Assembly (NCBI GenBank): GCA_009781475.1
Contig: WQYB01000004.1
Coordinates: forward strand, 1 to 64,000
Source of the DNA: Treponema sp.
GTDB taxonomy: Bacteria > Spirochaetota > Spirochaetia > Treponematales > Breznakiellaceae
Direction: 5' to 3'
Length of the DNA: 64,000 nucleotides
In this document: positions 2,157 through 64,000 of the stretch, piece after piece
Numbering within the stretch: the first letter of the stretch is position 1
Layout: every line of letters begins with the position of its first letter
Translations under genes and position numbers: made by a program
The notes under the pieces: generated by a model
The model's database searches: none
What the model was told of the DNA's origin: nothing
What the model saw: only the letters and a program-made list of their open reading frames with translations

Positions 2157-2981
2157 ATGAAAAGTAAAAAAATTGTAAAAACAGCAGCATTATTAATTAT
2201 TGGATTTCTAACCCTCCAATCAGCATATTCACAAGTTAGAAACGACATGATTCGCATAAACGGCGGAACTTTTCTAATGGGCAGCCCCGAAGATGAAGGC
2301 GGCAGGCATCAAACTGATGAAGGACCTCAGCATCAGGTCACTGTTAGTTCATTTTTTATGTCGAAATTCCCTATAACACAGGCTGAATACGAAGCAATAA
2401 TGGGAGTAAATCCAAGTCAGCATAGAGGACAGGATTTGCCGGTTGACCGGGTCAGATGGATTGATGCAGTTGAATATTGTAACAGACGAAGCATCGCAGA
2501 AGGTTTAACGCCTGTTTATACGATTGATGGAGCAAATGTTACCTGGAACCGTGAAGCAAACGGATACAGGCTGCCAACAGAAGCAGAATGGGAATACGCC
2601 TGCAGAGCCGGAACAACAACGCCTTATTATTCAGGAGCTTCCATGGATGATGCAGGATGGCACAGAGATAATTCTTTTGTAACACTTGAAACAGGAGCCA
2701 GGCTTAGAACCACATATCCGGTCGGGCAAAAACTGCCGAATGCCTGGGGGCTTTATGATATGCACGGCAATGTGCTTGAATGGTGCTGGGATTGGATGTC
2801 TGCTTATACACCGGAACCAAAAAATAACCCCATAGGACCTGCGACAGGATCAAGACGAGTTTACCGCGGAGGCAGTTTCGACTTTCAGCCTGCTTGGTGT
2901 CGCAGCGCATACCGCTTCGGGCAGCATCAAAGATTTCAAATGTTTTACACGGGTTTTCGGGTAGCGCGTAATATTCATTAA
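2157..2981 (+). CDS. Secreted formylglycine-generating-enzyme (SUMF1/FGE-sulfatase) domain protein
   Basis: Signal peptide MKSKKIVKTAALLIIGFLTLQSAYS; MIRINGGTFLMGSPEDEGGR, PVDRVRWIDAVEYCN, RLPTEAEWEYACRAG, GNVLEWCWDW, RVYRGGSF. Start moved from track 2136 to 2157. Confidence 0.88.
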   Translation: MKSKKIVKTAALLIIGFLTLQSAYSQVRNDMIRINGGTFLMGSPEDEGGRHQTDEGPQHQVTVSSFFMSKFPITQAEYEAIMGVNPSQHRGQDLPVDRVRWIDAVEYCNRRSIAEGLTPVYTIDGANVTWNREANGYRLPTEAEWEYACRAGTTTPYYSGASMDDAGWHRDNSFVTLETGARLRTTYPVGQKLPNAWGLYDMHGNVLEWCWDWMSAYTPEPKNNPIGPATGSRRVYRGGSFDFQPAWCRSAYRFGQHQRFQMFYTGFRVARNIH

Positions 2982-5056
2982 AATAATTCTCCTTGTTTTG
3001 CCTCAATTTGATTTTTTGTTTCATTAGTCTCAGTCTCAGATTTATTCGATTTAATCGATTTGATCGATTTGATCGATTTGATCGATTTGATCGATTTGAT
3101 CGATTTGATCGATTTGATCGATTTGATCGATTTGATCGATTTGATCGATTTAATCATTGCCAAAAATTCATCTTCGCCGATAATTGGTATTTTAAGCTCA
3201 TTTGCTTTTTTGTTTTTTGATGAACCGGAAGAAATATCATTGTTAACAAGAAACGAAAGGTCTTTAACAACAGAAGATTTTATCTGCGCTCCTAATGCTT
3301 TTGCTTTTTCTTCCGCTTCGCCTCTTTTCATTGTTATTAGTTCGCCTGTAAAACAAAAAGACTTGCCGCGAAGAGGCAGAGATTCTGCAGACGGCGGCAG
3401 AGCAATTGAAATAAAACCTGTTTTCAAAACAGCATCCATTTCTTTTGTACATTCTTTTAAGCCGTCTGCGATAACAGCCGCTGTAATTTCACCTAACCCA
3501 TGAATTGAAGCCAAATCTGATACAGATGCCTGGCGTAATTTTTCAAGTGTGTCAAAACCTGCCAAAGATATTTTTTCCATTGTGGTTTCCGCGATTCCTT
3601 CAAAGTCAAACCCGGCGATAAAAACAGCGAGCGAAAGCTCGCGTTTTGTTTGAATGTGGCGGATTACTTTTGCGGCTGATAATTCTCCCATTCTTTCGTA
3701 TTCAGAAAGTGTTTTTGCCGTAAGTGAATATAATTCATGAATGTGTTTTACATTTTTTTCAAACAATTGACGAATAAGTTTTTCTCCAAGTTCGCGGATA
3801 TCAAGAACGGATACCCATTTTTCAAGTCTGTGTAAAAGACGTTTTGAACATTGAAGGTTAGGGCAGTAAAGCCTTGTTCCGCCGTCGGTTAATTTACTGT
3901 TACATACACCGCAGGTTGTTGGAAAAATTATTTCCTGTGTTTTTTCTGATGATGGAAAAGGAGCGAGCCCTTCGATCTTTGGGATTATTTCTCCGCGTTT
4001 TACAACAGAAACAGCGCAGCCAATTTTTAAACCCATCGAACGAATCATGTCCGGATTGTTAAGGTTTGCGCGTTTTACGGTAGTACCGGCGATGCGCACA
4101 GGGTCGATAATACCGATTGGCGTATATGTCGCACCTGATTCACTCCATTCAATCTCACGCAAGATACTGAAAGCTGCCTCCAAATCAAACTTAAAAGCGA
4201 TTTGTTTTTCCGGGCGGGTTTTTCTAAGGTCTGACATATCAATTTCATTGTATTTAATTACAAGTCCGTCTATATCAAAAGGTAGTTTACTTCTTTTTTT
4301 TGTGATTTTTTCGCGGTAATCAATAATTTCCTGCGTTTTAGTATATGATTTTGTTTCTGTTGTTAAAAATCCGCGCTGTTCAAGCCAAGTTAGTTTCTGT
4401 AATTCTTCAGTAAAAAAATAGTCGTTTTCTGTTGCTGCATCATAAGCCATAAAGGAAAGGTCTTCACAGCCTTCGCCGTCTTTGCGGCGCATAATACCAT
4501 TGGCGGCATTACGGCAATTTGCTTTAGTTGGATATTTATTTTTCCAAATATCTCCGGTCATTATTACTTCGCCTCTTATGCCGCCCGTAAATGAAATGTC
4601 CAGTTTGTGAACAACTCCTTTCATACGCCGCGCATTGGCAGTAATATCATCACCTGTAAAACCGTCTCCGCGAGTGACAGCTTTTAAAAGTAATCCGTTT
4701 TTATATTGTAATTCAAGGCTTGCACCGTCTAATTTATATTGAACGATAAATGTTTTTGTTAATCCGTTTGAATGTTTGTTTAAAAGTTTTTCCATCCATA
4801 TTGTAAATTCCTGCGGGTTTGCAGCTTTGTCCTGGCTTCCCATGGGGATAAGGTGTTTTGCTTTGGGGAAACCGTCGGTATCGTAACCTGTTCCAACTTT
4901 TTTTAATACATCATTTTGCGGGTCAAGTGATTTTAATTCATCCCAAAGAAGATCAAATTCTTCGTCAGAGATTTCAGCTTCTCCATCGTAATAAGAAGCC
5001 TGGTATTTTAAAATTAATTTTTCCAGCTCATTAATCCGCTCTTGTTTAGAACTCAT
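2978..5056 (-). CDS. ligA: NAD-dependent DNA ligase with C-terminal (IKS)n repeat tail
   Basis: KLDGAS active site, RGDGFTGDDIT, Cys4 zinc finger, HhH, BRCT (LPLRGKSFCFTGEL); C-terminal repeat tail ending QGELF. Confidence 0.93.
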   Translation of the reverse strand: MSSKQERINELEKLILKYQASYYDGEAEISDEEFDLLWDELKSLDPQNDVLKKVGTGYDTDGFPKAKHLIPMGSQDKAANPQEFTIWMEKLLNKHSNGLTKTFIVQYKLDGASLELQYKNGLLLKAVTRGDGFTGDDITANARRMKGVVHKLDISFTGGIRGEVIMTGDIWKNKYPTKANCRNAANGIMRRKDGEGCEDLSFMAYDAATENDYFFTEELQKLTWLEQRGFLTTETKSYTKTQEIIDYREKITKKRSKLPFDIDGLVIKYNEIDMSDLRKTRPEKQIAFKFDLEAAFSILREIEWSESGATYTPIGIIDPVRIAGTTVKRANLNNPDMIRSMGLKIGCAVSVVKRGEIIPKIEGLAPFPSSEKTQEIIFPTTCGVCNSKLTDGGTRLYCPNLQCSKRLLHRLEKWVSVLDIRELGEKLIRQLFEKNVKHIHELYSLTAKTLSEYERMGELSAAKVIRHIQTKRELSLAVFIAGFDFEGIAETTMEKISLAGFDTLEKLRQASVSDLASIHGLGEITAAVIADGLKECTKEMDAVLKTGFISIALPPSAESLPLRGKSFCFTGELITMKRGEAEEKAKALGAQIKSSVVKDLSFLVNNDISSGSSKNKKANELKIPIIGEDEFLAMIKSIKSIKSIKSIKSIKSIKSIKSIKSIKSIKSIKSNKSETETNETKNQIEAKQGELF
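3047..3154. repeat. Tandem repeat, 12 x 9 bp (CGATTTGAT; the first and last units are CGATTTAAT)
   Basis: Counted directly: ten perfect units 3056-3145 flanked by two single-mismatch units. Confidence 0.97.
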
Positions 5057-54509: not shown

Positions 54510-55595
54510 ATCAAAACGAACGACTTTTATTTTAATCTTCCTGAAAACTTAATCGCGCAGTTTCCTTCCAAAGAAAGAGGGCAGAGCAGGCTTTTACTTT
54601 TAAATCGTATAACAGGCGAAAGAATTCACAGTAATACCGATCAATTACCTGATATTCTATGTGAAAAAAAGTTTTTAAGCCCGTCAGGTGAAAAACCATT
54701 ATTAGTTTTTAATGATACAAAGGTGCGAAAAGCCCGCCTTACCGGAAAATCAATTGAAACAGGAACAATGGTAGAATTTTTGTTACTTGAATATGACAAA
54801 ACTTGCAATGAATGGAAAACAATTGTACAACATGCAAAACGTCGGAAACCCGGCAGCCGTTATGAATTTTTTGATAAAAATAAAAATATTATTGCAGAAG
54901 CTGTAATAACAAAAGCGCAGGATGAATTTAGATACATACAAATAAAAAATAAAATCGATAATAAACCAATCGACGATGATTTTTTTGATAAATACGGTCA
55001 TGTTCCGCTGCCGCCTTATATAAAAAGAAAAGACGAAAGTATTGACAGTGAAAGGTATCAGACAATTTATGCAGACAAAACAGGATCTGCTGCAGCGCCA
55101 ACGGCTGGACTGCATTTTACACAAGAAATTTTAGACAAACTTGATTTATTCGGCATAGAAAGAGTTTTTATAACACTACATGTAGGTTTAGGAACTTTTT
55201 TACCTGTTCGTACTGAAAACATAATAGAGCATAAAATGCACAAAGAAACATTTTTTATAAATGAGATGACTGCTAAAAAAATAGAAAACGCAAAAGAGGC
55301 GGGACGTAAAATAATAGCAATTGGAACTACAAGTGTACGCACTTTGGAAAGCGCATGGGATAATAATATTAAAAAAATCGTACAAAAAGAAGGGGATACT
55401 TCGATTTTTATTTACCCCGGTTATAAGTTTAAGTTGGTAGATGTTATATTTACAAATTTTCACACGCCGGAATCTACACTTTTAATGCTTGTATCCGCCT
55501 TTGCAAATAAGGATATAATTCTGGAATGTTATACCGAAGCAGTAAAAGAGCAATATAGATTTTTTAGCTACGGTGATGCAATGCTGATTTATTAA
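54510..55595 (+). CDS. queA: S-adenosylmethionine:tRNA ribosyltransferase-isomerase; apparent ATC start codon
   Basis: ATC AAA ACG AAC GAC TTT TAT TTT AAT CTT CCT GAA = (M)KTNDFYFNLPENLIAQFPSKERGQSRLLLL; SD AAGGAG 6 nt upstream; TAPTAGLHFTQEIL, HVGLGTFLPV. Confidence 0.9.
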   Translation: MKTNDFYFNLPENLIAQFPSKERGQSRLLLLNRITGERIHSNTDQLPDILCEKKFLSPSGEKPLLVFNDTKVRKARLTGKSIETGTMVEFLLLEYDKTCNEWKTIVQHAKRRKPGSRYEFFDKNKNIIAEAVITKAQDEFRYIQIKNKIDNKPIDDDFFDKYGHVPLPPYIKRKDESIDSERYQTIYADKTGSAAAPTAGLHFTQEILDKLDLFGIERVFITLHVGLGTFLPVRTENIIEHKMHKETFFINEMTAKKIENAKEAGRKIIAIGTTSVRTLESAWDNNIKKIVQKEGDTSIFIYPGYKFKLVDVIFTNFHTPESTLLMLVSAFANKDIILECYTEAVKEQYRFFSYGDAMLIY

Positions 55596-56889
55596 CAGGA
55601 AACAATGTTTGCGCAGCTTCAAAAGGAATTCTGTCTGTTGTTTCCCATTTAAAATAATCATAACTTGTAGTAAAAGCGGCAATAAAGATACGAAAATACC
55701 CGATTGTATATATTGGATTAAAAAATAAAACAGCCAATTTTTCGGATAACGGAATCTTTATATTACGCCAATCAACGATAAGCGGCAAAAGAGTGAAGGC
55801 AAAAAGAGAGCCGTATATAAATAAAAATGAAATTACCGCAAGGCGCAAAGCCGGCACAAGACTTACAGCATTACCGAAAAGTGAAAAACAGATAGCGGCA
55901 ATACCGAATATCATCACCGCCGCAGAAACGCCGAGTAGCGCATAAGCGGGATATGTACTGTATAAAAAATCGTAGTTTTTGCGCAATTTTACTTTTCCTG
56001 AAAATGTTTTTTTAACGATTTTTTTATGGTAACGCCGCTGGCATTGAGTATAACCTTTGATCCAGCGCATCCTGCGTTTAAAAGCAGTTTTTGCATCGGT
56101 TGCTTCTTCTGTATAAACCCTTGCATAAGAATAATAAAATGTTGTCCAGCCTTTTAAAATAGCATCGGCTGTCATTTCATAGTCCTCAGTAAGACCGCGG
56201 TAAGGCCAGCCGTTATTTTCTTTTATTACATCTGTACGCACCATCATACCGGTTCCGATTATTGTGATAGTCATATCTAAAATATTACGGGCGCGGTTTC
56301 CAAGTTCGTCTACCTGTGTCCATGTAAGAGCAGTACAGTTTGAAATAATTGATCTAGAATCACAGCGGCGGCTTAGCCAATTTTTTACAAGTTTTTTACC
56401 GCAGATGATCTGTTTGCCGCTGCCAAGAGCATTATTCATTTCTTCCACCAGATCGGGTGATGCAAGATTGTCAGCATCTACTATCAAAAATGCTTCGTAC
56501 TTATCCGGAGTATCGGTTAGTATTTTTTTTAGAATACCGTCAAGAGCATCACCCTTACAGGTTTGACCGCTTATTATAGTCACATAGGTGCGTTCATAGG
56601 AAGCGGCGATTTTTATTGTGGGATCGGCATGGTCTGCAACAACGATATGGACATCGAAAAACTCGGGATTATAAGTTTGAGCGGCAAGAGAATCAAGACA
56701 ATGGCTAATAACAGCACTTTCATTTCTGGCAGGAACAATGACGGCGATTTTATTCATTTTTGGATTATTAAGTCTTTTTTGCTTTCTGAAGGCGGCAAAA
56801 TAATAGCTGATACGCGGTAAAAATAATGTAAGGGCTGCAATACAAAACCAAAGATAGATTTTCAAAGCCAATTCTGTTGCGTATTCCAT
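55564..56889 (-). CDS. Membrane glycosyltransferase, GT2 family
   Basis: IAVIVPARNESAVISHCLDSLAAQ, LIVDADNLASPDL, GLTEDYEMTADAILKGW, RRMRWIKGYTQCQ; C-terminal TM helices. Confidence 0.88.
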   Translation of the reverse strand: MEYATELALKIYLWFCIAALTLFLPRISYYFAAFRKQKRLNNPKMNKIAVIVPARNESAVISHCLDSLAAQTYNPEFFDVHIVVADHADPTIKIAASYERTYVTIISGQTCKGDALDGILKKILTDTPDKYEAFLIVDADNLASPDLVEEMNNALGSGKQIICGKKLVKNWLSRRCDSRSIISNCTALTWTQVDELGNRARNILDMTITIIGTGMMVRTDVIKENNGWPYRGLTEDYEMTADAILKGWTTFYYSYARVYTEEATDAKTAFKRRMRWIKGYTQCQRRYHKKIVKKTFSGKVKLRKNYDFLYSTYPAYALLGVSAAVMIFGIAAICFSLFGNAVSLVPALRLAVISFLFIYGSLFAFTLLPLIVDWRNIKIPLSEKLAVLFFNPIYTIGYFRIFIAAFTTSYDYFKWETTDRIPFEAAQTLFPVNKSALHHRS

Positions 56890-57018: not shown

Positions 57019-57441
57019 ATGACAGAAAAAATGATTGAACTTGGTTTTAAGGAACCGGAAAAGAAAAAAAGGCTTTTTAGCATTCGTCACTGGGCTCGTA
57101 ACAATTTAAAAGATGACAATATATACTCTGTAGAAGAAAACGTAGATAACATTAATTTATCGGAAGGAAGTTATTTACATATAATAGCAAGAAACGGAGG
57201 CTCTTTTATTTTGGAAGAAGGAGCCACTTTAGTAGCTCCTAATCTTGAAAAATGTAACTCTATAATATTAAAAGCGGGAGCAAAAGCATGGCTTCCTAAT
57301 CTTCAAAAAACTGAAGAAGGATGGTTTGCCGGCGGCGATATAAATAGAAATGGCATGGTTCTTGTTGAAAAAGGTGCGTTAATATATGCTCCCCGTGCAA
57401 TATTTAAGCAACAAGCAGGAGACGGAGAGTTCCTTACATAA
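57019..57441 (+). CDS. Small conserved hypothetical protein, possible beta-helix-like fold
   Basis: 140-aa ORF with SD GGAGG; repeating GGSFILEEGATLVAPNL / SIILKAGAKAWLPNL / GMVLVEKGALIYAPRA. Confidence 0.7.
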   Translation: MTEKMIELGFKEPEKKKRLFSIRHWARNNLKDDNIYSVEENVDNINLSEGSYLHIIARNGGSFILEEGATLVAPNLEKCNSIILKAGAKAWLPNLQKTEEGWFAGGDINRNGMVLVEKGALIYAPRAIFKQQAGDGEFLT

Positions 57442-57444
57442 GGT

Positions 57445-57477
57445 AATCTCTAAAAACTAAAATAGTTTTTAGAGATT
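57445..57477. terminator. Intergenic hairpin, probable bidirectional terminator
   Basis: 15-bp perfect stem AATCTCTAAAAACTA-AAA-TAGTTTTTAGAGATT between convergent genes; weak T-tract. Confidence 0.6.
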
Positions 57478-57504: not shown

Positions 57505-58605
57505 TTAATAGAAAGCATTTAATAAAACTTCCGCAACAGCTTTAGCGCCTGAAATATCATTACAGCTTTTTTCATTGTAAGAAAACTTTTTTAAAAGTTC
57601 ATAATCGTTTTTGAAAAGCCGGTCTAAAATACAGGATAACTCTTTGGGAGAGCCGCATTTTAAACCATATTCATTTTCAACTATATATTGATAATTTTTT
57701 TCTTCCTGTCCGGGTATGTGCCCTGTAATTATAACAGGAACGCACATTTTTACAGCTTCTAAAATCATATTGGGACCGGCTTTTGCGATTAAAATATCAG
57801 CGTTAGAAAGCCTTGAATCCATATCATGAACATAACCTAACACAGAAACATTTTTTTTGTTTAATAGTTTTTTGTCCAGGTATTCCTTTAGTTTTTTGTT
57901 GCTTCCTGTTACAACAGTTAAATTTACATCATATTTTAAAGCTGCAAGTATAAATTTCAATGTTACTTTATCGCGTTTTAAGCTGGGGCTTACCATTAAA
58001 ACATCAGGAACTGAAATATTTGTTTTCGGTTTTTTATTTATTTTGTTAAATTTTTCATTTATGGGAAAACCGGAATGAAATAATCTTTCTTTTTTAAAAC
58101 CCTTTTTTAAAAGCGCATTATACATTTTGATTGTAGGCACAAAGGTTATCTTGCATTTTTTATCATGCCAAAGGTGTGAATGTTTAACCAGGTCTATAAT
58201 GCAAGTGTAAAGCGGAGTATTTAATTTCATTCTTTTTAAACAATTAGTAATACTTCCGACAAAACATGGATGCACCGATAAGATTATATCCGGCTTATAA
58301 TCATTAATTAATATGCTGAAACGTTTAAATATAGCCTGATAAAGAATAAAATTTGAAAAACCTCTGAAAAACGATGTAAATTCAAAAAACAATTTCCAGA
58401 AAAATCTATATCGAGTTGTAAAAGAAATATAACCTTTTTCATCACCGTCGTAACCGGGAAAAAACTCCATAGAATCAAATGCTAAAACATCCGTATTGAG
58501 GTTTAACTCTGAAAGAGCATTTTTTATTGCATCTGAGCTGCTTTTGTGCCCTCCGCCTTTTCCGGATGTTAAGATTAGGATTTTATTTTTGGTATTCGTT
58601 TTCAT
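57505..58605 (-). CDS. MGDG-synthase/UgtP-like processive diacylglycerol glycosyltransferase (GT28-like)
   Basis: ILILTSGKGGGHKSSSDAIKNAL, DIILSVHPCF, ADILIAKAGPNMILEAVKMCVPVIITGHIPGQEEKN. Confidence 0.85.
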   Translation of the reverse strand: MKTNTKNKILILTSGKGGGHKSSSDAIKNALSELNLNTDVLAFDSMEFFPGYDGDEKGYISFTTRYRFFWKLFFEFTSFFRGFSNFILYQAIFKRFSILINDYKPDIILSVHPCFVGSITNCLKRMKLNTPLYTCIIDLVKHSHLWHDKKCKITFVPTIKMYNALLKKGFKKERLFHSGFPINEKFNKINKKPKTNISVPDVLMVSPSLKRDKVTLKFILAALKYDVNLTVVTGSNKKLKEYLDKKLLNKKNVSVLGYVHDMDSRLSNADILIAKAGPNMILEAVKMCVPVIITGHIPGQEEKNYQYIVENEYGLKCGSPKELSCILDRLFKNDYELLKKFSYNEKSCNDISGAKAVAEVLLNAFY

Positions 58606-58615
58606 TCCTTAAGTT

Positions 58616-59044
58616 TTAGAAAAAATTATGAAGAGCGGTACTGAGTACTGCAATTAATATACCAATGTAAAAAATCCAGAATACTGTCATGAATATGGAT
58701 AATGCCAAGCCGATGCTGCCCGTAATTACACCTGCTAATGCAATATGAAATTTATCATGACTTTCATTTAAAACAGTTCGTGCCTTTTTACCTGTTGATA
58801 TAGCAATAGCGCCTAAAATAATGCCTACAATGAGCCAGCTTGTAACAAGACTTATTATACCCATAACAAGGGAGGCTACAGCTCTGGATTCAGAATCTGC
58901 GATTTCAGGTGATGGTTTAAAAACCAGATTATTGTCATTAGACTCTTGAACTATTGAATTTTGCTGCGGTTCAGCTTTATTACCGCAAGAGGAGCAAAAA
59001 GCAGCGTCATTTTGAAATTCTTTGCCGCATTTAGAACAATACAT
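58616..59044 (-). CDS. Zinc-ribbon membrane protein with DUF4190-like TM region
   Basis: MYCSKCGKEFQNDAAFCSSCGNKAE then two TM helices. Confidence 0.82.
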   Translation of the reverse strand: MYCSKCGKEFQNDAAFCSSCGNKAEPQQNSIVQESNDNNLVFKPSPEIADSESRAVASLVMGIISLVTSWLIVGIILGAIAISTGKKARTVLNESHDKFHIALAGVITGSIGLALSIFMTVFWIFYIGILIAVLSTALHNFF

Positions 59045-59045
59045 A

Positions 59046-60047
59046 TTAATTAACCTCCGTAATTTTTACATTATTATATTTTTGCAAGAAATTTGCAATA
59101 GCTTTATCGTAGTCAGCTTCTTGTGAAGATCTGACATGGGAATGTCTGCCTTCCGGGAAAAACTTAAGTTCTTTGTATTTTGAAACACATGAATTAAAAA
59201 GTTCCTCACTTTTAGATTTAATACAAAAAATATCTTTTGCACTCCAAATGAATAAAAACGGGATTTCAATATCTTTCATATATTTTTTTGGAGTTTCTTC
59301 AAAAAGCCTGACTCTGGCAAGAATAAATGCAAGGAAAAAAACCAAATAAAGCATAGGAAAAGGGCGTTTTTTACGCAATTTAAAATTTTCTTTGAATATT
59401 TCGTAAAAACTTAAAAATATTCCGTCAGTAACTATTCTTTTTACTAAATCGCTGCCTTCATTTTTCAGTTTGATATAAGCAAAGACTGCCGCAGCTCCTC
59501 CGATGCAAATTCCGTGAAGCGTAAAATCGGTTATGGAATATTTTTTGTTAATAAGTTTTATCCATGAAACTAAATCGCCGCTTTCCTTTATACCCGAAGT
59601 TATATATTTTCCGTCACTAAGACCATGCGCCCTGACATCGATTACCAAAATATTGTAACCGTTTTTTTTATAAACATCTGCAAAATAATAAGAGTACAAA
59701 AGCGATTCAGTTCTTCCTTGCAGGATTACAGCGCATTTGTCAAAACCGAAATTTATATATTCGCCGTATAAATTAAGTCCGTCATTTATTATATGCAGCT
59801 CTTCTGTTTTATCCTTGAATTGCAATGCCCAATTAATTCCTTCAGAAAACATATACATTTGCTGTTCATCTTTTGTATTGGTACATTCTCTTGTTCTTTT
59901 CTTCTTTGGGTTGCGGTACATTGTGTTGCAAAAAATTATAATAGGAATTAAAAAGAACATAATAATACCGCTTACAGCCCCAAAAGAGGCTGCGGCAATA
60001 GCGGTAATTACCCAGGGGTTTTCCAATGCGAGAATTGATGAAATCAT
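59046..60047 (-). CDS. Membrane-anchored alpha/beta hydrolase
   Basis: N-terminal TM; DVRAHGLSDGKYITSG, LHGICIGGAAAV nucleophile-elbow region (GICIGG, Cys not Ser), C-terminal GRHSH. Confidence 0.75.
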   Translation of the reverse strand: MISSILALENPWVITAIAAASFGAVSGIIMFFLIPIIIFCNTMYRNPKKKRTRECTNTKDEQQMYMFSEGINWALQFKDKTEELHIINDGLNLYGEYINFGFDKCAVILQGRTESLLYSYYFADVYKKNGYNILVIDVRAHGLSDGKYITSGIKESGDLVSWIKLINKKYSITDFTLHGICIGGAAAVFAYIKLKNEGSDLVKRIVTDGIFLSFYEIFKENFKLRKKRPFPMLYLVFFLAFILARVRLFEETPKKYMKDIEIPFLFIWSAKDIFCIKSKSEELFNSCVSKYKELKFFPEGRHSHVRSSQEADYDKAIANFLQKYNNVKITEVN

Positions 60048-60991
60048 AATTTGCTTACTATGTCATTTATGATTTCTTTTTCAAACTTCAAGTCTGTTAT
60101 TTCTGTTCCGAAATAGTATGCGCCAAGAAGCCCGGGACCTACGTTTATACCGCACATAGGATATACGTTGCAAATAATTACTTCTTTTGGTTTTATTTTT
60201 TCAATAATTTTGGAAGCCAGGATTTCAGCCTGTTTTTTTCTTGCTGAATGAGCGACAAAAATAATCTGTTCGTTTGCAGATTTAATTGTTTTTTCAATAT
60301 ATTCAACTGTAGCTTTGTATGCCTTTTCGTAGCCGCTTACCTTTGTTAAAACTGTAACCATGCCGTCAGGACCAAAATCTCCCATAGGTTTTATCCCTGC
60401 TACAGTACCGAAAAATGCCTTAGCGTGAGAAATTCTTCCTTTAGATGCGACCCAAAATAAATCGTCAATGGGACCCATTTGATGAAGTGTCATTTTAATC
60501 TTTTCCAGCTTTTGTGCATTTTGCTCCAGTGATAAACCTTCCGCGCGGAACTGACAAGCCTTTACAGTTAAAAGTCCCAGAGCTACCGAATATTTTCTGG
60601 AATCTACAATAAATATTTTTCGTTCGGGGTATTTTTCCAATAAAGCTTTTTGTGCGCATGTCATTACATTGTATGTTGCGCTGAGGCTGCTTGATATGCA
60701 TAGAGCCAAAACGTCTTTTCCTTGCTGCAAAAAAGATTCAAAATATGAAGTAACATCATCAACACTGAGCGCGGCAGTTTTGTATCCGTTTTTATTTGAT
60801 TTTAATGACGAATAAAAATTGTCAAGCTCTTCATCGCTTAAATCAAGCCTGCCTTCGACATCATCTGCTTCCGGGGTACATAAATAACCTTTAAGGTAAC
60901 CGTCAACTTCAAAGCGAGTCCTAAGTTCTGGTGACAAATCGCAGGCTATATCAGCAAAAACTGCATAGCTGTACTGTTTTTCTTCATTCAT
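60044..60991 (-). CDS. DegV family (fatty-acid-binding) protein
   Basis: YAVFADIACDLSPEL, ALCISSSLSATYNV, DSRKYSVALGLL; start at ATG 60991 with SD AGGAGG; overlaps hydrolase start by 4 nt. Confidence 0.88.
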   Translation of the reverse strand: MNEEKQYSYAVFADIACDLSPELRTRFEVDGYLKGYLCTPEADDVEGRLDLSDEELDNFYSSLKSNKNGYKTAALSVDDVTSYFESFLQQGKDVLALCISSSLSATYNVMTCAQKALLEKYPERKIFIVDSRKYSVALGLLTVKACQFRAEGLSLEQNAQKLEKIKMTLHQMGPIDDLFWVASKGRISHAKAFFGTVAGIKPMGDFGPDGMVTVLTKVSGYEKAYKATVEYIEKTIKSANEQIIFVAHSARKKQAEILASKIIEKIKPKEVIICNVYPMCGINVGPGLLGAYYFGTEITDLKFEKEIINDIVSKL

Positions 60992-60999
60992 AATTCCTC

Positions 61000-61977
61000 C
61001 TAAATTTTTAAAGTAACTCTGTTTGCAAAGTCCAGGCAATTATTGTTTATTATACTATATCCGCCTTGTCCAAGACATGATTTTGCATACTTTTCAATAT
61101 CTTCCGCATTTCTAATAAATCTTTTTTCGCTTCTTTTCATCGTGCGTACTTCAGGGATTTTAGCGCCGCAAAAATCCTTCAAAGAAATAGAATTAACAAT
61201 TACATTTTCTCCTGCTCTGTTTACAGTATAGCCAAATTGAATAACTTCGTCTGCATTAATATATACGCCGTAATGGTGGTGAGAACCTGCATTAATGCGG
61301 ATAATGTCGCCTTTTTTAGGCGAGATAAAATCATATTTATTGGAAAACTTCTGCGCTTTTTCTCTTTTTAATTTATAAAAAAGCATTAAATATTTATTGC
61401 TTATTTCAGCATTTATTTCTTTTAATTTTTCTTTTGTAAGTTCTGTATCTGAATAATCCGATAAATCTATGCTGTTTCCGATCATTACGTGAACTCTCTT
61501 AAAAAGTCCGTAATTAAAATCGTTAACAACCGGAATTATCTTTACTCCTGTTTTTACTGCAATCATTATATATCCTTCAGAAAATTTTGAAGGTTCGTAT
61601 GTAAACTTAAAACCGCCTTCGGGAAACATCAAAATGGGTCTGCCCTTTGCGGTTATTCTTTTGCTTTTTTGAATAAAATCTAGGCTGCGCCCGTCTCTTT
61701 CAATAAAAATGCCTCCGGCTATTCTTATTAATAGTTTTAATAATTTACGTTTTTTATTGTACCAATCAATAACCAAAAAGTGTAATCTTTCAAAGAAAAA
61801 TATAAGAGCGATAACAATACCGTCCATAAAAGATCGATGGTTAGAAATAATTAAAGCGCTGCCGTTTGTCCGTTTAATTTTTTTATTATTGTCCTCATAA
61901 TAAGTTTTTGTTTTAAATATAAAAAGCTGAAAAAGTAAAAGCTGTATAAGTCCGAAGTAATATATAATTATACTCAT
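61000..61977 (-). CDS. PlsC-like acyltransferase fused to C-terminal LRAT/NlpC-P60-like domain
   Basis: NHRSFMDG, FIERDGRS, FPEGG acyltransferase motifs; C-terminal KKGDIIRI...HHHYGVYINADEVIQFG...GGYSIINNNCLDFAN. Start ATG 61977 overlaps upstream stop (ATGA). Confidence 0.82.
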   Translation of the reverse strand: MSIIIYYFGLIQLLLFQLFIFKTKTYYEDNNKKIKRTNGSALIISNHRSFMDGIVIALIFFFERLHFLVIDWYNKKRKLLKLLIRIAGGIFIERDGRSLDFIQKSKRITAKGRPILMFPEGGFKFTYEPSKFSEGYIMIAVKTGVKIIPVVNDFNYGLFKRVHVMIGNSIDLSDYSDTELTKEKLKEINAEISNKYLMLFYKLKREKAQKFSNKYDFISPKKGDIIRINAGSHHHYGVYINADEVIQFGYTVNRAGENVIVNSISLKDFCGAKIPEVRTMKRSEKRFIRNAEDIEKYAKSCLGQGGYSIINNNCLDFANRVTLKI

Positions 61978-63947
61978 AACATCTCTTTTATATAATTGTA
62001 AAAGCACTGCGGAGTGCGTAAGTTTTGGTTTTTTTCCAGATTGATTTGAATGTTAAATATACTTTCAATTTCACATATCAATGTAAAATAGTCAAGACTG
62101 GTTGCGCCTAAATCAATAAAGAAATCTGAACCAGTTTGTACTTCTGTATCAGTATTTGCTGCAGATTTAAACACTTGTTTAATTAATAACATCGCAGCAT
62201 CGTCTGTTTTGTCATCTTGTTTATAACAGATGTCTTTAAGATTTCTGCTATTCAATAAAATAACTTCGCCTTCAGTGATTTTTCGTTTTAATAACTCGCG
62301 CGAAACTTTAATCGCATTTGGGTTTGCAATTAACTGTCGGGTTACAAAAATCTCTTTTACATTCTGTCCGTAGGTGATTTGCGCTAAAGACTTTTTTAAT
62401 ATTTCTATTTCATTGGAAATTATTGTGTCCGGCAGCTTTTCGTTATATTCCAAAACGATTGAAAGTTTTCCATCCAGTTCTAAAACGCATAGTTTGTTTG
62501 CATTTTTAACTTTTAATTCATTTTGAATTGTATCAGGATGTATATTTTCGCCGTTTTCACTGATAAAAAGATCGCTTTTCCGTCCTACAATGTAATGCCG
62601 TCTGTTTATTGTTTTTATTATATCATTAGTTTTTATACAGTAAAAACCGCATTGATTTTCTTTAAGTGTGATAATTTTTTTACAAATAGAACTGCCGGAT
62701 ACAACTAAAGTTCCGTCTTCGTTATAAGTGTAATCGGCGCTTATAAAAGGATTCCCTATTGAGCCGTCTGTTCGTTTTTTTATTCTCTTTGAAAGATTTG
62801 CTCCTGTAATAGCAGTTTCTGTAGTACCGTAACCGTTAAAAAGCGGATAACCGATGCAGTTAATGATTTTTAAAGCATCGCTTTCTATATAAGCACCGCC
62901 TGAAATCATAAACACAGGAGATAATCCGAACGATGCGGCAAGTACTTCTTTAAAAAGTTTTTTTGAAATCCAAACACCTAATGACGGAAAAATATTTTGC
63001 AAGGCAAAAGCAAGTTTTATACCTCTTTGAAATTTCTTTTTTCGTACTTCGCTTTCCTGCGAAATCCCATTCATTATTCCTTTGTGTAATTTGTGGAAAA
63101 GGATCGGAGGGGCAAAAATATGCGTTACCTTGTGCCTATTTATTGTTCCCCTTATAGTGTCCGGGGAATTGTCTTTGAGAAAAACCATTGTACGTCCGAA
63201 AAAAGCAAACCAAAAATAACTTACCATAATTCCAAAGATGTGAAAAAGCGGTAAAATCATAACAACCTTAATTCTTTTTTTGTAGTCATTCATAAGCCAA
63301 TTATTGGTTTTTATAATATCTTTTGTATTTAATATTTGATTTACAACAGCCTCACCGTCAAATACGCATATCTTTGCTTCAAGACCTGTAAGAGTAGAAG
63401 ATAAAGCAAATTCATTATCCCAAAATTCATCTGAAATTTGCATATTTTTATTTTCATAAGTGTCAATATTTATAACAGTAAAATCAATATAGTCATTTGA
63501 AGATGTTATTACCAGATTAACATTAAGGATTTTTAGGAGTTTTATTCTTAGATCCGCAGGGTAAAACGAATTAACAAGATACGGTTTGTTGCCGCTCATT
63601 AAAATTGCCCAAAACGAAATTAAAAAATTTGGCGTATTAACAAGGTCAATAGCAATATATTCACCGGATGTATCAGGATATGTTTGTTTTATAAATGCTG
63701 CAAATGATCGTATCTGTAAATCTAACGTTTTGTAGGTTACTGCATCAATTTCTAAATTGACAAGCCTTTCGTATGCAAAAAGGTTTTCATGTGAAAATAT
63801 TATTTTATATATATCTTTGAATGTTTTATCTGATTTCATTACAGCGTTCAGGTTCTTTTTAATAGTTTTTTTATAATTTTCCATAAAATCTGATAACCCT
63901 TTAATATGCTCCGATAATAAAATCAGATTCATGCTGCTTGCCTTCAA
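61974..63947 (-). CDS. Acyl-AMP ligase (FAAL/FACL-like) with C-terminal acyl carrier protein domain
   Basis: ANL-like fold (LFNGYGTTETAITG, IVGRKSDLFISENGENIHPD); ACP motif DLGATSLDYF (Ser codon 62097-62099). Confidence 0.85.
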   Translation of the reverse strand: MKASSMNLILLSEHIKGLSDFMENYKKTIKKNLNAVMKSDKTFKDIYKIIFSHENLFAYERLVNLEIDAVTYKTLDLQIRSFAAFIKQTYPDTSGEYIAIDLVNTPNFLISFWAILMSGNKPYLVNSFYPADLRIKLLKILNVNLVITSSNDYIDFTVINIDTYENKNMQISDEFWDNEFALSSTLTGLEAKICVFDGEAVVNQILNTKDIIKTNNWLMNDYKKRIKVVMILPLFHIFGIMVSYFWFAFFGRTMVFLKDNSPDTIRGTINRHKVTHIFAPPILFHKLHKGIMNGISQESEVRKKKFQRGIKLAFALQNIFPSLGVWISKKLFKEVLAASFGLSPVFMISGGAYIESDALKIINCIGYPLFNGYGTTETAITGANLSKRIKKRTDGSIGNPFISADYTYNEDGTLVVSGSSICKKIITLKENQCGFYCIKTNDIIKTINRRHYIVGRKSDLFISENGENIHPDTIQNELKVKNANKLCVLELDGKLSIVLEYNEKLPDTIISNEIEILKKSLAQITYGQNVKEIFVTRQLIANPNAIKVSRELLKRKITEGEVILLNSRNLKDICYKQDDKTDDAAMLLIKQVFKSAANTDTEVQTGSDFFIDLGATSLDYFTLICEIESIFNIQINLEKNQNLRTPQCFYNYIKEML

Positions 63948-64000
63948 TAAATGAAAACTCTATATTACTATTTTTTTCAAAATGCACATGAATACTTTTT

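Follow-up and report, generated by a model that had tools for sequence, protein, structure and literature searches.

A candidate fatty-acid salvage and lipid-acylation operon in Treponema sp. with close relatives in Firmicutes

We analysed 64,000 nucleotides of DNA from Treponema sp. (hereafter the window; positions 1-64000 of the 83,646-base contig WQYB01000004.1) and describe a minus-strand operon encoding proteins of fatty acid and lipid metabolism. The reading that we favour, with about even confidence, is that of a laterally acquired nine-gene operon with a detached tenth gene, which would combine fatty-acid salvage with lipid acylation and would include a glycosylation arm. This reading draws on what can be read directly from the DNA, namely gene order, domains, conserved catalytic residues, the co-occurrence of the genes, and their presence in two phyla. 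All parts belong to known families. A first-pass annotation, made from the sequence alone, had not recognized the combination as a named system, and we likewise found no description of the combination or of its spread in the open-licence literature, which is weak evidence of absence.

Gene content and boundaries of the operon

The first-pass annotation reported six nearly gapless minus-strand genes as a lipid operon. All six open reading frames were recovered (57505-58605, 58616-59044, 59046-60047, 60044-61039, 61000-62007, and 61974-63947), and three of their starts were revised. The frame at 60044-61039 opens with TTG, and ATG 60991 is preferable; that at 61000-62007 opens with GTG, and ATG 61977 is preferable. 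For the ligase, ATG 63884 is preferable to the earlier TTG 63947 because orthologues start there and because the stop codon of fakA lies at 63901. With these orthologue-supported starts, the junctions of the six genes in the 5' to 3' direction measure -4 (ATGA 61974-61977), 8, -4 (ATGA 60044-60047), 1 (between the hydrolase and zinc-ribbon genes), and 10 nt, in agreement with the overlaps and the 1-nt gap reported earlier.

The gene arrangement supports an operon, but one larger than the six genes. Three additional same-strand genes upstream, mostly beyond the window, had been missed, above all FakA. They bring the total to nine, and the junctions from the DXD-type glycosyltransferase through MFS_2 and FakA to the ligase measure -11, 4, and 16 nt. 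The window edge truncates the operon, and the six reported genes are its lower two thirds. A divergent AsmA-like gene lies beyond the DXD glycosyltransferase gene at the upstream end. In order of transcription, with E-values of domain matches and with ACP standing for acyl carrier protein, the features are as follows:

Contig 66996-67766, minus strand: DXD-type glycosyltransferase, first operon gene, upstream of the MFS_2 gene on the same strand
Contig 65483-67006, minus strand: MFS_2 transporter (PF13347)
Contig 63901-65478, minus strand (3' end in the window at 63901-64000): FakA, 525 aa; Dak2, FakA-like_M, and FakA-like_C domains
61974-63884, minus strand: AMP-forming acyl ligase with C-terminal ACP domain (LigACP), 636 aa; AMP-binding 8e-26, PP-binding 3e-4
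61000-61977, minus strand: PlsC fused to an LRAT/PLAAT-like domain (PlsC-LRAT), 325 aa; Acyltransferase 2e-20, LRAT 4e-12
60044-60991, minus strand: probable FakB (DegV family fatty-acid-binding subunit), 315 aa; DegV 5e-46
59046-60047, minus strand: alpha/beta hydrolase with Cys nucleophile; Hydrolase_4 8e-12
58616-59044, minus strand: zinc-ribbon and DUF4190-like membrane protein, optional; Pfam matches below cut-offs
57505-58605, minus strand: MGDG_synth/UgtP-like glycosyltransferase (GT28); MGDG_synth 7e-14, Glyco_tran_28_C 4e-10
57445-57477, no strand assigned: 15-bp hairpin, likely a bidirectional terminator; -15.9 kcal/mol, z -5.5, 0 of 200 shuffles as stable
55564-56889, minus strand: membrane GT2 glycosyltransferase, probable former last operon gene; homologues follow GT28 in two Firmicute relatives

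Close relatives in two phyla

A close form of the operon, with the same gene order, was found in two metagenome-assembled genomes (MAGs) of Oscillospiraceae (loci L034 and L035). Proteins common to the window and these loci, the zinc ribbon excepted, share 64-74% identity, and the flanks of the two loci are unrelated (an SLH-domain protein and catalase; flagellar genes). The prefix Emb289 of L035 denotes the termite Embiratermes neotenicus (PMC7024585), so that at least one of the MAGs comes from a termite gut. GT2 homologues (69-71% identity) follow GT28 in both, with a spacing of 24 nt in L034 and with a single pentapeptide gene in between in L035; GT2 therefore probably belonged to the operon as a tenth gene that is now detached. 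In the window, the two genes are split by a convergent plus-strand frame (57019-57441; 140 aa, no Pfam or NCBIfam match), where L035 has its pentapeptide-repeat gene. In scans for promoters and terminators, matches were no more frequent than in shuffled sequences; the one feature to stand out, when folded directly, was the hairpin between this frame and the stop of GT28 at 57505.

Among spirochaetes, a four-gene core (DXD glycosyltransferase, LigACP, PlsC-LRAT, and Cys hydrolase) is present in two genomes of the same genus (G016 and G006) and one of the same family (G1177). In all six close relatives, the first gene of the operon encodes the DXD glycosyltransferase. RuvB, encoded on the host contig, is 79% and 83% identical to its counterparts in G016 and G006, and 55% identical to that of the Firmicute G344. 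By contrast, three of the four core proteins are closer to Firmicutes than to spirochaetes: the glycosyltransferase labelled GTsug (70-73% versus 66-69%), PlsC-LRAT (71-73% versus 66-69%), and the hydrolase (71-74% versus 63-66%). LigACP is level, at about 67% to both phyla. Since operon identities do not track RuvB, vertical inheritance cannot explain them; judged by these comparisons, the operon is shared horizontally and crossed phyla. An unrooted four-gene tree separates the window, L034, and L035 from G016, G006, and G1177 with support of 100/100. Neither this tree nor the ligase tree resolves the root or the direction of transfer.

A related ligase occurs in 5 of 244 genomes of the spirochaete order, two of these being distant proteins of about 1,100 residues. 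Among spirochaetes, the core recurs in three genomes, but the system is rare there and commoner in Clostridia, so the spirochaete copy was probably acquired. Distant ligase-ACP relatives of that length in same-genus spirochaetes (L114:7832-11119 and L115:7545-10841, in G022 and G013) stand without operon partners.

Mis-binning of the contig was rejected, as the RuvB that it encodes shares 79-95% identity with that of genomes of the genus. The contig carries outer-membrane genes, in keeping with a host of the Treponematales type. Chance clustering was likewise rejected, because a second phylum has the gene order and numerous Clostridia have the core. We looked for an empty insertion site in the ruvAB-queA neighbourhoods of eight same-genus genomes; these share ruvAB-queA, but the genes that lie on the far side of the operon were not found in them.

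A wider clostridial core

Ligase-ACP profile searches at different E-value limits, with inspection of most matching neighbourhoods, found relatives in 18 further genomes of the order sample of the Firmicute (394 genomes), 12 in the class (391), and 1 in the phylum (399). We counted partners within about 10 kb at 26 clostridial loci, excluding five weaker, partnerless ligase matches (L069, L071-L073, and similar). PlsC was present at 25 of these loci, FakB at 21, and FakA and the Cys hydrolase at 19 each, followed by a DPMS-like GT2 (12), PlsX (11), LRAT (10), MFS_2 (8), and 4'-phosphopantetheinyl transferase (PPTase; 4); the counts are not independent, since some loci are closely related and some contigs are cut. 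Conserved co-occurrence in other genomes, the absence of which the first-pass annotation had listed as a refutation, is therefore observed both for the gene order (L034 and L035) and for the core in Clostridia. Beside the clostridial core, three loci (L111:16461-18986, L110, and L112) encode an 841-aa protein that joins a xylose-isomerase-like TIM barrel (AP_endonuc_2) to a complete AMP-binding ligase.

The PlsC-LRAT fusion reported earlier is present, but it is a derived state. Most often, Clostridia encode LRAT as a gene of its own behind the PlsC genes, as in the L057-like type, where it follows two of them; the window protein is thus a fusion of neighbours. In L065 (10103-11104), LRAT is instead fused to a PPTase (ACPS E 3e-13). 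This independent second fusion points to ACP as the LRAT partner and, together with the PlsC-LRAT fusion of what we call the termite-type clade, connects the LRAT domain with acyl transfer. An LRAT-PPTase fusion is also encoded in L063 (15916-16902).

Domain assignments and conserved residues

In LigACP, the AMP-binding and PP-binding matches both exceed the Pfam cut-offs, and the profile matches AMP ligases and ACPs in the PDB. The phosphopantetheine serine S596, expected of an ACP, is invariant in 16 of 16 aligned proteins, as is the A10 lysine of the ligase; A5 and the Asp of A7 are also kept. Curated Aas-type models (NF005959 and NF006386) match weakly, the Aas model at 40/886 bits.

FakA shows DAK2, middle, and C-terminal domains (Dak2 E 1e-26, FakA-like_M 2e-21, FakA-like_C 7e-12), PDB matches to 7w7h (E 1e-47) and FakA 8vip (E 2e-31), and the motifs DSDTGTNM, YCTEF, and HIHT. 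It scored below the curated cut-offs (FakA_VfrB 205/975 bits; YloV 325/396). The host assembly has no other FakA-like_C match, and searches of same-genus G016 and G006 gave none. The neighbouring protein was correctly assigned to the DegV family, but with FakA in the operon it is most likely FakB, by its sequence and its partner. It matches the FakB1 model at E 4e-26 (92/350 bits, under the equivalog cut-off) and PDB DegV/FakB chains down to E 2e-23. The pair thus has the composition of a fatty acid kinase, with all three FakA domains beside a DegV-family partner.

In PlsC-LRAT, the NHxxxxD-type motif of PlsC (NHRSFMD), the LRAT His in HYG, and the LRAT Cys in NNC are conserved in 5 orthologues. 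The LRAT Cys and His are invariant in 15 sequences, which gives the catalytic pair of a permuted NlpC/P60 fold. The second active-site His of the HHC triad is replaced by Gln in 14 of the 15 and by Glu in 1; in LRAT, the third polar residue may not be essential (PMC3142127). The LRAT-domain profile matches PLAAT3 (PDB 4dot) at E 2e-10.

The hydrolase has an N-terminal hydrophobic segment and the nucleophile motif HGICIG, with C181, D272, and H302 invariant in 17 sequences. Its annotation as an alpha/beta hydrolase stands, but a plain serine lipase is unsupported: in place of the GxSxG serine nucleophile of serine esterases and monoglyceride lipases, all 17 relatives have Cys. The best PDB match is 5g59, an esterase with Ser at this position, and the nearest solved relatives are ordinary esterases.

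GT28 has MGDG_synth and glycosyltransferase C-terminal domains above the Pfam cut-offs, as in MGDG/UgtP enzymes, and the NCBIfam models that it matches best are those of diglucosyl-diacylglycerol synthases (E 2e-30), with scores of about 105 where the cut-offs are 500-557. On sequence grounds, it is a distant UgtP/MGDG-type enzyme. The zinc-ribbon gene, listed earlier as a member of the set, is present, but its zinc-ribbon and DUF4190 matches fall below the Pfam cut-offs. It is an optional member, since L034 has two copies and L035 has none at the equivalent place.

Elsewhere in the window, an NAD-dependent DNA ligase (2978-5056, minus strand) carries a long low-complexity SIK repeat near its C terminus.

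Proposed mechanism and alternative explanations

On the reading that we favour, FakB would bind a free fatty acid and FakA would phosphorylate it to acyl-phosphate. The ligase would make acyl-AMP and load its own C-terminal ACP once this is phosphopantetheinylated. MFS_2 may import or flip a lysolipid, by analogy with LplT beside Aas, and PlsC would move the acyl chain from ACP to a lysolipid or glycerolipid acceptor. The LRAT domain may exchange acyl chains between lipids through a Cys thioester, as PLAAT proteins do, the Cys alpha/beta hydrolase may release or transfer acyl groups, and GT28, the DXD glycosyltransferase, and GT2 may add sugars to the lipid. The best supported of these steps are those of FakAB, the ligase, and PlsC; the remaining ones are weaker. 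A glycosylated glycerolipid bearing scavenged acyl chains is the likely product. The earlier proposal of a set that activates a fatty acid, acylates a lipid, and glycosylates it fits the domains, but the glycosyltransferase arm is specific to the termite-type clade, outside the wider core.

Several observations weigh against this mechanism. In this clade the ligase has a degenerate P-loop (SSTLTGLEAKI versus STSGTTLxxKI in others), so adenylation by LigACP is not assured. No PlsX (PF02504) turned up in the genome of the host or in two others of its genus (G000, G016, and G006; assemblies 70-93% complete), which bears on how acyl-phosphate would enter the pathway. The same-genus copies of the core are without FakA, and no FakB, MFS_2, GT28, or window-type GT2 was seen in their operons. 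GT28, the DXD glycosyltransferase, and the window-type GT2 were matched at 0 of the 26 clostridial loci, which makes glycosylation an addition of the termite-type clade and possibly a separate function. MFS_2 matched no solved transporter by sequence or by profile, and AlphaFold models of PlsC-LRAT and the hydrolase (three sequences each) were uninformative, with pLDDT of 38-39. Apart from the operon, the result for PlsX in these three genomes of the genus bears on the start of phospholipid synthesis there.

The operon might serve only to salvage exogenous fatty acids into bulk phospholipid through FakAB, an acyl-ACP synthetase, and PlsC, with the glycosyltransferases as mere passengers and no dedicated product. 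FakA-FakB-PlsX clusters with PlsC at 11 of the 26 clostridial loci, the lack of window-type glycosyltransferases in that core, and the single FakA of the host would all agree with this. We nevertheless consider it unlikely, as bulk synthesis would need neither a ligase with its own ACP nor an occasional local PPTase, LRAT and the Cys hydrolase are foreign to it, and GT28 and GT2 travel with the operon across phyla. Similarly doubtful is a module in which the ligase-ACP, PlsC-LRAT, and Cys hydrolase fix an unusual chain made elsewhere, such as an aryl polyene or another specialised acyl group, to a glycolipid anchor. In E. coli, aryl-polyene clusters are proposed to attach their product to a lipid anchor by means of an acyltransferase and a glycosyltransferase/acyltransferase (PMC8253772), and in G016 and G1177 the four-gene core adjoins genes for ketosynthase, ketoreductase, ApeP, AMP ligase-ApeI, O-methyltransferase, DUF3261, LolA, and MMPL exporters; an aromatic lyase joins these genes in G016 and two small ACPs do so in G1177, while the exporter part (DUF3261-LolA-MMPL) is present in G006. 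However, the loci of G016 and G1177 have their own ligase, and G1177 its own ACPs. Aryl-polyene genes were not found in the window, in the inspected parts of the contig, or in the 1.26 Mb (about 38%) of the host assembly searched; none were seen near L034 and L035 or recognized in the clostridial neighbourhoods. Moreover, FakA and FakB imply ordinary free fatty acids as substrate. The aryl-polyene-type loci themselves (L036, L113, L127, L125, and L037, in G016, G1177, and G006) feature a fusion of an AMP ligase with an ApeI-like dehydratase; those of G016 also include an aromatic amino acid lyase.

Acylation could also be directed at a glycan or protein of the cell surface instead of a glycerolipid, which we regard as improbable. 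The sequence of ligase, ACP, and acyltransferase resembles the logic of teichoic acid D-alanylation, the DXD glycosyltransferase stands at the head of the operon in each of the six close relatives, and a polysaccharide deacetylase adjoins the Cys hydrolase at three clostridial loci. By contrast, PlsC and PLAAT-like domains act on lipids, and no polymerase was found in the operon.

Comparison with known systems

In its proposed function, the acylation operon resembles LplT-Aas of E. coli (PMC11416262) combined with FakAB. LplT-Aas, too, groups an MFS transporter with an acyl-ACP synthetase and a PlsC-type acyltransferase, and acyl-ACP is its acyl donor, as presumed here. The window operon differs in having MFS_2 (PF13347) and a synthetase with fused ACP encoded separately from the acyltransferase, whereas Aas joins PlsC and the synthetase in a single polypeptide alongside LplT, and in adding FakAB, LRAT, the Cys hydrolase, and glycosyltransferases. 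MFSD2A indicates that MFS proteins can move lysolipids (PMC11416262), and by analogy the presence of MFS_2 in the place of LplT suggests lysolipid import.

Bacillota FakA/FakB share the domain layout, the DegV partner, and the PDB relatives 7w7h and 8vip, but the proteins described here score below the FakA, YloV, and FakB1 cut-offs and lie within an acylation operon, in a host in which PlsX was not detected. PLAAT/LRAT proteins share the PLAAT3 profile match and the invariant His and Cys, but here the second active-site His is Gln and the domain is fused to PlsC, or to PPTase in L065. GT28 shares both domains of UgtP/MGDG synthases and scores far under their curated cut-offs. Aryl polyene clusters (PMC8253772) likewise combine acyl-ACP synthetase, lysophospholipid acyltransferase, and glycosyltransferase, and genes of this kind lie next to the core in G016 and G1177, but those for a ketosynthase, reductase, dehydratase, or exporter are absent from the window operon.

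We tentatively propose, as rather less than an even chance, that the core seen in gut Clostridia is an undescribed acyl-ACP lipid-remodelling system (MFS_2, ligase-ACP, PlsC, PLAAT-like transacylase, Cys alpha/beta acyltransferase, and FakAB), which would be a Gram-positive counterpart of LplT-Aas and may have crossed into gut spirochaetes, there joining glycolipid or aryl-polyene pathways. LplT-Aas is known only from Gram-negatives, although some Gram-positives also import lysolipids and acylate them, through an unidentified route (PMC11416262); the gene set is a concrete, testable candidate for this activity. It also connects fatty acid kinase, which has been examined until now chiefly as a supplier of bulk phospholipid synthesis, with a dedicated acyl-ACP ligase, and provides a clear case of a whole lipid operon common to spirochaetes and gut Firmicutes.

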